Shown piece by piece: positions 50,362 through 54,675 of a stretch of 64,000 nt of DNA. Origin of the DNA: Gammaproteobacteria bacterium (GTDB taxonomy: Bacteria > Pseudomonadota > Gammaproteobacteria > Ga0077536); contig JACPPA010000002.1 in assembly GCA_016191285.1 (NCBI GenBank), positions 202,815 through 266,814 on the forward strand, given 5' to 3'. The notes below the pieces were generated by a model. It saw only the letters and a program-made list of their open reading frames with translations, ran no database searches and was not told the DNA's origin. Position numbers and translations under genes: made by a program. How positions within the stretch are numbered: the first letter of the stretch is position 1; every line of letters begins with the position of its first letter.

Positions 50362-50631
50362 TCAATCACTTCGCGATCCAAATAGCAGAAACCAAATCCC
50401 AACGATCCCGGCAATGATCCCTAGGGGTGCGGCAACCCATTTCTGAATCGTCGGATTTGTCTCTTTGACCCACCATAGAGGAAGAATTATTCCTAAAACA
50501 AACAATGTAATCTGGTCAAATGTATAGACCGCCTCCACGTACTTGAACGGAACGATGTGCTTGAACAATGCGCCTTCTAACAAAAACAGTAAAAGCAGTA
50601 ATCCAATAGCCCAACCGCGTAACGCAGTCAT
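50362..50631 (-). CDS. Small membrane protein in the repressor operon
   Basis: 89 residues, three likely membrane helices: GWAIGLLLLLFLLEGALF, ITLFVLGIILPLWWV and APLGIIAGIVGIWFLLFG. Its start overlaps the repressor stop by one base, so it is expressed in the lysogen. Genes in this place can code for superinfection exclusion or host-altering proteins. That role is a guess from position. Confidence 0.65.
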   Translation of the reverse strand: MTALRGWAIGLLLLLFLLEGALFKHIVPFKYVEAVYTFDQITLFVLGIILPLWWVKETNPTIQKWVAAPLGIIAGIVGIWFLLFGSRSD

Positions 50632-51077
50632 TAATCTGCACCTTTCTTGGTTTTTGCTGCATCGCGTTCTTTATTCAATTTCTGAAATTTATGTTCCGTC
50701 TGCAAGTATTCCGGGCTTCCTGGCATAGCTAATGCCAACGCAACTTCAAGCAGATGCTTTTGCACATTTGGAGTTAATCGGTGGAAAGCGTCGACGAGTT
50801 GCTGCGTTCGTTTTGGAAGAGCCATCTGACTGTCTTCGGATAAGTCTTTTGGAACCGTCTGATCTTTTGAGGAATTTCGCCCAGCCATAATCATGGTGCA
50901 GCTAGTATCAAGGACGCTTGCAACGCGAACGAGATTGTGACCTTCGATGTTTTTGATAACTCCTTTTTCCCAATCGCTCGCGGTAGGAACAGAGACTCGA
51001 ACCTTTTTAGCGAAATCAGTTAGCGACATTTTTTTCGCTTCTCTGCGCTCTTTGATTCTGGTGCCCCATTCGCTCAT
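50631..51077 (-). CDS. CI-like phage repressor (XRE helix-turn-helix)
   Basis: 148 residues from the ATG at 51077; the longer frame upstream covers the operators and the Cro-like gene on the other strand and is not real. The N-terminal XRE domain is WGTRIKERREAKKMSLTDFAKKVRVSVPTASDWEKG (about 3-40). The C-terminus is helical, with no S24 peptidase, so it is probably not cleaved by RecA in the LexA manner. It lies divergent from the Cro-like gene with operators between. Confidence 0.82.
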   Translation of the reverse strand: MSEWGTRIKERREAKKMSLTDFAKKVRVSVPTASDWEKGVIKNIEGHNLVRVASVLDTSCTMIMAGRNSSKDQTVPKDLSEDSQMALPKRTQQLVDAFHRLTPNVQKHLLEVALALAMPGSPEYLQTEHKFQKLNKERDAAKTKKGAD

Positions 51078-51078
51078 G

Positions 51079-51143
51079 TAGGCAATCCTAACTCTAGGAA
51101 CGATAGGTATGCCTTGACGATTATTTGTAGGTATGCCTAAGAT
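51079..51143. promoter_or_regulatory. Triple operator between repressor and Cro genes, with PR-type promoter
   Basis: Three 12-base sites of the form TAGG-N4-CCTA: TAGGCAATCCTA (51079-51090), TAGGTATGCCTT (51104-51115) and TAGGTATGCCTA (51128-51139), with starts 25 and 24 bases apart. Rightward TTGACG (51114-51119) and TAAGAT (51138-51143) are spaced by 18 bases, so the second and third operators overlap the promoter. The first covers the repressor start region, allowing self-control. Confidence 0.82.
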
Positions 51144-51150
51144 TGTCGAC

Positions 51151-51336
51151 ATGACTGATTCAGAACTCATCGACAAATTAGGCGGCACGGCTGAGCTTTC
51201 TCGACTGTGCAAGGTGAAGCCTTCGTCTGTAAGTGAATGGCGGAAAACCGGCATACCACCGGCGAGACGAATGTTTCTAGAAGTGGTTCGCCCTGACATT
51301 TTCGGCGAAGCGCCCAAGAAAGGCCGCGCCGCATGA
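51151..51336 (+). CDS. Cro-like helix-turn-helix protein
   Basis: 61 residues from the ATG at 51151: MTDSELIDKLGGTAELSRLCKVKPSSVSEWRKTGIPPARRMFLE, the pattern of small Cro proteins. The ATG at 51133 lies inside the third operator and before the expected transcript start near 51150, so it is less likely. If that start is right, the mRNA is almost leaderless. Confidence 0.8.
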   Translation: MTDSELIDKLGGTAELSRLCKVKPSSVSEWRKTGIPPARRMFLEVVRPDIFGEAPKKGRAA

Positions 51337-51500: not shown

Positions 51501-51751
51501 GTGAAGAACTGCGCGATCTGCGTTGCAAGATCCCAGCTCTCGTCGATTGTTTCCTCGAGGCCGAAGCACGGGCCGCAGGCGGCGACAAGTGCATCGTCGT
51601 GCGCTCGGTGTTGCTCGAATGGGCGAAGTCGCGTCATACGGCCTACATTCAAGCCGATAAGCTTTTGCGGGCCGAGGGATTGGTCGGGGAATCGCAGGGA
51701 TCGCGGCGGTCACCGCAGGGCAAGCCGGCGCTGACGTGGCCGGAACCGTGA
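51497..51751 (+). CDS. Hypothetical phage protein
   Basis: 84 residues from the GTG at 51497, in a GTGA overlap with the preceding gene. CKIPALVDCFLEAEARAAGGDKCIVVRSVLLEWAKSRHTAY suggests a helical DNA-binding-size domain. No family recognised. It precedes the replication gene. Confidence 0.6.
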   Translation: MSEELRDLRCKIPALVDCFLEAEARAAGGDKCIVVRSVLLEWAKSRHTAYIQADKLLRAEGLVGESQGSRRSPQGKPALTWPEP

Positions 51752-52458
51752 ATTATTACGCTCGTCATATCGGCGATTACACGCGTGATGCGGCGCACCT
51801 TTCGCTGCTCGAACATGGGGTTTATTGCCGCCTCCTCGATACCTACTACGCGAGGGAGCAACCCCTACCTTCAGAAATTATTTTAATTTGCAGACTCATA
51901 GGAGCAAAAAATAAAGATGAGAGGGCGGCTGTGGAGGCCGTGTTAAAAGAATTCTTTACACCTACCGATGACGGATGGAAACAAGCTCGCTGTGACAAGG
52001 AGATAGAGCGCTTTAATGAGAAAAGCACTAAGGCTAAACGCAGTGCCAACGCACGTTGGTCGCAATCCGAAGGCAATGCGAACGCATACAAAAACGCAAT
52101 GCGTTCGCATAGCGAAGGCAATGCTCCCAATAACCAAGAACCAATAACCAATAAATACCCCCCTAACCCCCGTCGGGAGAAGGTGCATGAATTTCCACCA
52201 GGATTCGATCAGTTCTGGGAAGCCTACCCACGTAAAACTGCAAAGCCAGCAGCATCGAGAGTGTTCACCAGGCTACGAGTCAATACCTCCCTGCTGAACC
52301 TGATGCTGTCAGCACTCGAACGGCAGAAGGTCAGCGAACAGTGGACCCGAGATCACGGCCAATATGTTCCGCACCCGGCGACTTGGCTCAACAACCGACG
52401 ATGGGAAGACGAGCTCGCGGCAGTTCCCGTGCTGAACGGTTTTGAGGACTGCATTTGA
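51748..52458 (+). CDS. DUF1376 phage replication protein (YdaU-like)
   Basis: 236 residues from the GTG at 51748, in a GTGA overlap. The DUF1376 domain begins VNYYARHIGDYTRDAAHLSLLEHGVYCRLLDTYY and runs to about 105. A linker with a possible origin of replication in its DNA follows, then a C-terminal segment FPPGFDQFWEAYPRKTAKPAASRVF, as seen in phage O-type initiators. With the helicase gene next, it probably recruits the replication machinery to the phage origin. Confidence 0.85.
   Translation: MNYYARHIGDYTRDAAHLSLLEHGVYCRLLDTYYAREQPLPSEIILICRLIGAKNKDERAAVEAVLKEFFTPTDDGWKQARCDKEIERFNEKSTKAKRSANARWSQSEGNANAYKNAMRSHSEGNAPNNQEPITNKYPPNPRREKVHEFPPGFDQFWEAYPRKTAKPAASRVFTRLRVNTSLLNLMLSALERQKVSEQWTRDHGQYVPHPATWLNNRRWEDELAAVPVLNGFEDCI
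52060..52165. other. Candidate phage replication origin inside the DUF1376 gene
   Basis: CGAAGGCAATGC occurs twice (52068-52079 and 52113-52124). Two 12-base palindromes, ATGCGAACGCAT (52076-52087) and its complement (52099-52110), lie between. An AT-rich stretch with repeated CCAATAACCA units follows (52127-52155). Iterons beside an AT-rich segment in the middle of the initiator gene is how the lambda origin is built. The coding constraint here, a low-complexity linker, is weak. Confidence 0.55.
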
Positions 52459-53411
52459 ACGCCGTCGTCGAATTCGTTGCGAAGCATTCCATCTCAGCGA
52501 AGGAGATCGCACCGTACGAATGCAATCCCGAAGACGCGCTGCACATTCATCCGGCAGGCGTCTGGCGTCAGCGGATCGTTGACTACTTCAACCTACCTGA
52601 CGAGCAGCGCGGCGACATGCTGCCGTGGAGTAAAACTCACGCCAATGTTCGACTGCGTGAAGGCGAGCTTTCGATCTGGGCCGGTGCGAATGGATCTGGC
52701 AAGTCGATGCTGCTATCTCACGTCCTGCTCGACCTCATTGCCGGTGGACGACGGGCCGTGATCGCATCCCTCGAAATGTCGCCGGTAGCGACCCTGGCGC
52801 GCATGGTGAGGCAAGCCTGCGCCGTTGACCTGCCCACACCGCGAGAAGTCGACTGCGCCCTCTATGCGCTCGGTACGAAGCTGTGGCTGTACGACCAGAT
52901 CGGGACTGTCCACGCCAAACGAGTTTTTGGTGTGATCCGCTACGCTCGAGAAGAGCTCGGCGCCGATCACGTCGTCATCGATTCGCTGATGAAGTGCGGG
53001 ATCTCGACCGAGGATCTCGATCAGCAAAAGCGCTTCATCGATCGGCTAAGCACCTACACGAAGGACACCGGCGTTCACCTGCACTTGGTAGCCCATACCA
53101 CGAAGGCTTCCGGTGGTGATGCACATGCGGACAAGTACAGCGTCAAGGGTGCCTCGGAAATTACCGACATGGCGGACAACGTGTTCGTCGTGTGGCGAAA
53201 CAAGGCGAAGGAGCACAAGACTCAAGCCGCCTCAGCGCAAGGTGATCTACTGCCACCAGCTGAGCGCGCCGCGCCGGACTGTACCGTAACGGTCGACAAG
53301 CAACGTCACGGCGAGTGGGAAGGCCGTATCGCGCTGTGGTTCAACCCTCGGTCTCTTCAGTACAGCGGCAAAGACACCACGGACACGTTCCGTTATCTGG
53401 TGGAAGAATGA
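52455..53411 (+). CDS. RecA/DnaB-like replicative helicase or helicase loader
   Basis: 318 residues from a TTG start in a TTGA overlap. A RecA-type ATPase core has Walker A GANGSGKS (77-84), a second strand RAVIASLEMSPVATLARMVRQ typical of DnaB helicases, Walker B HVVIDSLMKCG, and the loop VAHTTKASGG...SVKGASEITDMADNVFVVWR. It lacks the DnaB N-terminal domain, as do Twinkle-like phage helicases. Probably unwinds phage DNA together with the upstream initiator. Confidence 0.83.
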   Translation: MNAVVEFVAKHSISAKEIAPYECNPEDALHIHPAGVWRQRIVDYFNLPDEQRGDMLPWSKTHANVRLREGELSIWAGANGSGKSMLLSHVLLDLIAGGRRAVIASLEMSPVATLARMVRQACAVDLPTPREVDCALYALGTKLWLYDQIGTVHAKRVFGVIRYAREELGADHVVIDSLMKCGISTEDLDQQKRFIDRLSTYTKDTGVHLHLVAHTTKASGGDAHADKYSVKGASEITDMADNVFVVWRNKAKEHKTQAASAQGDLLPPAERAAPDCTVTVDKQRHGEWEGRIALWFNPRSLQYSGKDTTDTFRYLVEE

Positions 53412-54171: not shown

Positions 54172-54675
54172 ATGCGTGTTGGATCTCTGTTCTCAGGTAT
54201 TGGTGGATTCGATCTCGGCTTCGAGCGCGCCGGAATGTCCATTGCGTGGCAGTCCGAGATCGATCCATTCGCGTGCGCCGTGCTTAAAATGCGCTGGGTA
54301 ATTAACAGCGAGGCGATGCGAGAGAAGGCGATCAACGCGATCCGTCGGCTCTCGCTCGAAGTGTTGATGGAGATCGAGGTTAAGCCGTGGAAGCGCAAGC
54401 GGACGCAGGAACAGAACGCGCGCTTGTGGATGCTGTACACGGCGATTTCGAACCAGGCGCCGGCGTACATGAACGGTCAGTGGTTCTCGCCTGATTGCTG
54501 GCACTACGAGCTCGCTGGACGTTTCCTCGGCTACGAAGCTACGCCAAGCGGCAAGGGCAAACCGAAGTCGACTACCGAGCTCGATGTGCAGGGCATGAGT
54601 GATTACCAAGCACAGATCGAAGCTTGGGCTGTAGAGGAATTCAACCTCGATCTCGATTACCGGGAAGCGGCGTGA
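54172..54675 (+). CDS. ninB: NinB recombination protein with a fused cytosine-methyltransferase N-terminus
   Basis: 167 residues. Residues 1-39 (MRVGSLFSGIGGFDLGFERA, then WQSEIDPFACAVL) are motif I and the following strand of a C5-cytosine methyltransferase. From residue 40 the sequence is NinB: RWVINSEAMREKAINAIRRL, RTQEQNARLWMLYTAIS and GQWFSPDCWHYELAGRFLG. NinB helps RecA-like exchange in lambda. The ATG at 54289 (residue 40) could start a normal NinB, but the frame is open from 54172 with a methyltransferase start. It is best read as a deletion fusion; which start is used is unknown. Confidence 0.82.
   Translation: MRVGSLFSGIGGFDLGFERAGMSIAWQSEIDPFACAVLKMRWVINSEAMREKAINAIRRLSLEVLMEIEVKPWKRKRTQEQNARLWMLYTAISNQAPAYMNGQWFSPDCWHYELAGRFLGYEATPSGKGKPKSTTELDVQGMSDYQAQIEAWAVEEFNLDLDYREAA

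Follow-up and report, generated by a model that had tools for sequence, protein, structure and literature searches.

A probable prophage replication origin inside a DUF1376 initiator gene: tandem 11-bp iterons followed by a conserved 7-bp ladder

The 64,000-nucleotide stretch of gammaproteobacterial DNA analysed here (the window) carries, inside the gene for a putative DUF1376 initiator, a tandem array of 11-bp iterons followed by a ladder of 7-bp repeats, which we interpret, with a probability of roughly 0.8, as a prophage replication origin resembling that of phage lambda. Initiator binding, DNA opening, helicase loading and the start of replication are all inferred. What the comparison of related sequences establishes is the geometry of the array and selection on the DNA itself, not on the encoded protein, together with a concentration of the element in the DUF1376 gene family and a co-variation of the iterons with the DUF1376 domain. 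Counted against the origin reading is that this analysis has no data on binding, melting or replication at any DUF1376 origin. GC-skew was left out of the evidence because a switch of gene strand at the same place would be a confounder.

The gene that harbours the element lies at 51736..52458 on the forward strand, and its likely start is the GTG at 51748, which overlaps the stop of the upstream ORF (GTGA). It satisfies membership of the DUF1376 (YdaU) family, with a match to PF07120 (E 6.7e-30) of 103.7 bits against a curated cut-off of 30.1; phrog_9327 (‘primosomal protein’) also matches the initiator (E 3.5e-59), and the phrog_270 profile (‘replication initiation protein’) covers residues 116–232. 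The DUF1376 domain occupies residues 6–91 and the C-terminal domain about residues 156–228. An earlier note on this DNA had placed the repeats in the linker of a putative initiator, and this is indeed where they are: iterons and ladder encode residues of about 103–141, between the two domains. Residues 121–150 are modelled with low confidence (mean pLDDT 49–56), suggesting that the linker is probably disordered. A fold search with the initiator gave no significant match to a known DNA-binding structure; the insignificant matches include several winged-helix proteins. A second DUF1376 gene in the host genome (G000:C33:36956-37195) has no ladder.

The surrounding genes follow a lambdoid order, with a CI-like repressor gene (50631–51077, minus strand), a Cro-like gene (51133..51336, plus strand), the DUF1376 gene, a RepA/DnaB-type ATPase gene, RusA, NinB and, later, a head–tail connector. 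The Cro-like gene, which matches the P22_Cro profile at a level under the curated cut-off (E 1.5e-5) and phrog_8008 (‘DNA binding protein’, E 4.7e-17), heads a rightward transcript that crosses the repeat element. The ATPase gene stands directly after the DUF1376 gene on the plus strand (52455..53411), matches PF13481 (AAA_25, E 1.8e-13) and PF03796 (DnaB_C, E 2.7e-8), and likely encodes the helicase to be loaded. Two copies of TAGGTATGCCT(T/A), at 51104–51115 and 51128–51139, lie in the interval from which the repressor and Cro-like genes diverge and are likely operators. Further along, the ORF at 54172–54675 is like a C5 cytosine methyltransferase over residues 1–59 and like NinB over residues 41–154, and has the appearance of a fusion produced by recombination.

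The iteron array extends over 52042..52124 on the plus strand in units of about 11 bp, with a consensus, AATGCGAACGC, drawn from 44 non-redundant relatives. It begins with AGTGCCAACGC at 52042 and a weak copy, ACGTTGGTCGC, at 52053, and continues with AATCCGAAGGC (52064..52074, codon phase 1), an iteron identical to the consensus (52075..52085, codon phase 0), a degenerate 12-bp copy, ATACAAAAACGC, at 52086, AATGCGTTCGC (52098..52108, codon phase 2) and ATAGCGAAGGC (52109..52119, codon phase 1), ending in a half unit, AATGC, at 52120. All three codon phases are represented among the copies of this single gene. The direct repeats and paired palindromes described in the earlier note are real, with exact copies of CGAAGGCAATGC at 52068–52079 and 52113–52124 and the palindromes ATGCGAACGCAT at 52076–52087 and ATGCGTTCGCAT at 52099–52110, but they are fragments of one tandem 11-mer array rather than separate elements: the iterons starting at 52064 and 52109 contain most of the first and second direct repeat, respectively, and those starting at 52075 and 52098 are the first and second palindromes. 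Single motifs were rejected as the evidence. With at most one mismatch, two or more matches to the palindrome occurred in 46% of whole-window shuffles and two or more matches to the direct repeat in 13%, so that neither alone is compelling in 64 kb, and the case therefore rests on the periodicity. The period of 11/22/33 in 52039–52128 exceeded both synonymous recodings of the window protein (P = 0.003) and base shuffles (P = 0.0002).

The ladder, at 52129..52156 on the plus strand, consists of AATAACC AAGAACC AATAACC (52129–52149) and a degenerate AATAAAT, and is a candidate opening or helicase-loading tract. An AT-rich tract with CCAATAACCA-type repeats had been proposed here and is present at 52127–52158; it is, however, more precisely a conserved 7-bp ladder, whose AT content is not high in GC-rich phages. 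In the window, G is almost absent from its top strand, and the AT content of 73% over 52129–52158 is matched by only 0.8% of the 30-mers in the 50–60 kb region. The period of 7/14/21 in 52129–52158 again exceeded synonymous recodings (P = 0.004) and base shuffles (P = 0.0002). None of 100 window shuffles contained the ladder pattern, even when two mismatches were allowed; the 5.1-Mb host genome has a single exact copy, and among 397 genomes of the phylum only two others have the pattern. Just 3′ of the ladder there is a C-run/C-run/G-run arrangement, CCCCCC-TAA-CCCCC-GTC-GGG (52158..52177, plus strand), which is a possible third element; it recurs in 7/69 genes selected by domain, where synonymous recodings would give 0.2, as well as in Rac ydaU and a circular P. 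aeruginosa record. A search of Rfam returned no match for the element.

Prevalence was judged from relatives chosen without regard to the linker. Searches with the peptide NNQEPITN as a probe were excluded for this purpose and a domain-only search was used instead (a domain-only search with a single sequence yielded few relatives), giving 69 non-redundant phage genes selected by the DUF1376 domain only. The linker DNA of these genes is self-similar beyond synonymous recodings at lags of 7 (z 11.6), 11 (z 11.1) and 22 (z 7.4). In control stretches from the domain and the C-terminal part, the largest excesses fell at multiples of 3 and lag 11 was outside the top lags; lag 7 reached z 4.3 in the C-terminal stretch. 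All z-scores of this analysis are optimistic, as genes were taken as independent after redundancy filtering. ACC recurred at three 7-bp steps in 44/69 genes, compared with a mean of 8 (maximum 15) in synonymous recodings, and the pooled heptamer is ANNMACC. By this criterion the other 25/69 had no ACC ladder; a ladder is also missing from most of the chromosomal DUF1376 genes. Across relatives, the AT content of the ladder ranges from 43 to 71% and is inversely correlated with gene GC (r −0.71; 43% AT in GC-rich relatives), and top-strand G averages 8%. Because its AT content follows gene composition while its top strand stays G-poor, the ladder is more than an AT-rich tract. With an 11-bp period upstream and an ANNMACC ladder downstream, both in the linker, the window meets our definition of a DUF1376-linker origin.

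Upstream of the ladder, the excess in the relatives was larger still, at lags of 11 (z 23.9), 22 (z 17.2), 33 (z 8.2) and 44 (z 6.1). The 11-bp period appeared separately in five iteron groups (TGCGAACGCA, GTTCAAC, AACCC/GGGTT, one unassigned, and KSD), and was weakest in the KSD group. Within the window's own class of 44 non-redundant genes, the spacing is 11 in 108/171 iteron intervals, the copies fall in all codon phases, the dyad arms TGCG..CGCA have 81% complementary positions, and in 25/30 genes a gap of 5 nt separates the last iteron from the ladder. Periods of 7 and 11 are incommensurate with codons, and one DNA unit is therefore read in all three frames. The similarity of iteron 7-mers between genes was related to the similarity of their DUF1376 domains (partial r 0.36) and hardly to that of their C-termini (0.07), and where the domains were unlike, it made no difference to iteron content whether the C-termini were similar. 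Since iteron content tracks the domain and hardly the C-terminus, the co-variation points to the DUF1376 domain as the likely iteron reader, with the reservation that physical linkage could contribute. Nearly identical DUF1376 domains are often joined to unlike C-terminal parts (76/157 close pairs), and the exchange point falls past the iterons; modules may be swapped at the ladder.

The ladder could also be followed in viral relatives. IMG/VR viral contigs were scanned at the DNA level for three copies of AANAACC, and the 120 matches listed are a sample. Of these 120, 107 have the ladder within a DUF1376 ORF, in the sense orientation and 22–74 aa past the domain, divided 52/42/13 between the reading frames; several of the remaining 13 contigs are truncated relatives. 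In non-redundant genes, the free base N of the ladder was T in 73/103 cases at codon position 2 and 101/134 at position 3, and in 0/119 at position 1, where a T gives a TAA stop. A codon-usage test on genes selected by the DNA pattern was discarded as circular and repeated on 34 non-redundant genes selected by the peptide QEPITN, for which any codons are permitted. CAA GAA CCA ATA was used in 34/34 of these and ACC came next in 31/34, a choice with a log10 P of −65.6 given the codon usage of the same genes, if independence is assumed. A second ladder type, AGACACC, was in DUF1376 ORFs at 74/101 places, in all three frames. The named phages P19250A, MR13, Ab105-1phi, Mcat18 and Rb1 have the layout of the window, and in Vibrio phage 1.039.O the ladder, judged by eye, occurs as an ACT variant. 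Other initiator families may also carry heptamer ladders: the probe AACAAAG found 18 contigs, one with the match in a DUF1376 gene and several with it in another apparent phage replication protein, where it sits in the linker (L445, L446, L449, L450 and L458). Nine exact tandem copies of AAGAACC were also seen in a related genome (L260, G262:C1:559960-560022), within a short open stretch that apparently lies outside any initiator gene.

Three other explanations of these repeats need to be weighed. They could be no more than a low-complexity protein linker (NQEPITNN and similar peptides) produced by replication slippage, without a role at the DNA level. The segment is in frame and encodes a poorly predicted, probably disordered linker, and similar simple heptamer repeats occur elsewhere as apparent microsatellites, as in G262. 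Such an origin of the repeats is nevertheless very improbable, given the use of one DNA unit in three reading frames, the avoidance of T only where a stop would arise, the extreme codon choice in the QEPITN genes, and periods of 7 and 11 that exceed synonymous recodings in genes selected regardless of the linker.

An RNA signal in the early transcript, where the C-rich, G-poor ladder would be a Rho-utilisation or antitermination site controlling the helicase gene, would suit the top-strand G content, which is down to 0.08 in the ladder, and the location of the ladder on the sense strand in the DUF1376 genes among the matches listed; that it is on the sense strand only is indeed also compatible with a signal at the RNA level. 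Rut sites have spaced cytosines, which the ladder resembles. We think this explanation very unlikely, however, as the adjacent 11-bp iterons with their dyads, the fixed 5-nt distance between iterons and ladder and the co-variation of the iterons with the DUF1376 domain are all left unexplained, and Rfam offers no match. It is also conceivable that the initiator binds these sites for autoregulation or copy control of its operon and that the true phage origin is elsewhere. Iteron-binding initiators often regulate their own genes, and the array is inside a transcribed operon. Here we have strong doubts, for the sites are in the middle of a gene and not at a promoter-like site, and the downstream ladder at its fixed distance looks like an opening tract and has no evident autoregulatory role.

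If the element is a lambda-like origin, the N-terminal DUF1376 domain would bind the tandem iterons at 52042–52124. As the 11-bp step is about one helical turn, copies bound to successive iterons would line up along the same side of the helix, and the stacked initiator would strain the adjacent ANNMACC ladder at 52129–52156, causing it to open. The C-terminal part of the initiator may then recruit the RepA/DnaB-type ATPase encoded immediately downstream. Bacterial oriC has in the DnaA-trio a short repeated unit beside the initiator boxes which is thought to guide opening; that unit is of 3 rather than 7 and of another sequence, and the initiator that goes with the ladder is of phage type. It is a tentative suggestion, to which we attach less than even confidence, that ANNMACC corresponds in phages to the DnaA-trio: more than a duplex of low stability, it would be a sequence-specific loading signal that the initiator, the helicase or a host factor recognises in the opened, single-stranded state, and a module between exchangeable iterons and helicase-loading domains that is perhaps present in other initiator families as well.

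The origin of lambda has 4–6 iterons of about 18–19 bp each. Judged by the features of that origin, the window has the array and the dyad arms, but its 11-bp unit fails the requirement for 18–19 bp. The AT-rich tract at 52129–52158 and the location within the initiator gene, between DNA-binding and loader-contacting parts (both roles inferred), do conform; a relation to the lambda O or P families does not, since profile searches found no match to them among the initiator and its neighbours. In ori-lambda, O binds iterons within its own gene and an AT-rich tract opens (PMC7466680, PMC5043065). The lambda and Stx-phage origins have in common with the window a position inside the initiator gene, iterons with an adjoining opening tract, a helicase-loading gene next, and rightward transcription through the origin (PMC7466680, PMC5043065). 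In contrast to lambda, the window has 11-bp tandem iterons instead of longer ones, a ladder of 7-bp units where lambda has a plain AT-rich tract, an initiator without a shown relation to O, and a RepA/DnaB-type ATPase gene in place of P. The lambda-type origin proposed in the earlier note is thus supported by comparative evidence as regards iterons and an opening-type tract in the initiator linker, and not as regards the iterons themselves, which are 11-mers; because iteron length and initiator family differ, the element is not a strict member of the ori-lambda type.

In Escherichia coli, Rac ydaU is likewise a DUF1376 gene; its linker contains TGTTCAA-type repeats spaced 33 bp and 12 bp apart, and a putative ATPase gene (ydaV) adjoins it, but there is no ANNMACC ladder (lag 7 z −1.3). 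Iteron plasmids such as P1, F, RK2 and R6K have longer iterons that, unlike those of the window, lie outside the initiator coding sequence. Helix-phased arrays of initiator sites beside an opening tract are common to these plasmids and the window (PMC5043065). An active origin, oriJ, has been reported for the Rac prophage (PMC3945230), its identity with ydaU not being established.

We found no description of a DUF1376-linker element of iterons and ladder in the literature, subscription papers not being covered. Although widespread in phages, DUF1376 proteins still bear a name that denotes unknown function, and the present analysis supplies a predicted DNA target and mechanism for them. It also accounts for odd peptides such as NQEPITNN and HQTPDT in their linkers, as 7-bp DNA repeats translated in different frames. 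Finally, conservation of the ladder in many phages whose iterons differ would allow a direct test of what, apart from a high AT content, distinguishes the tract at which an origin opens.
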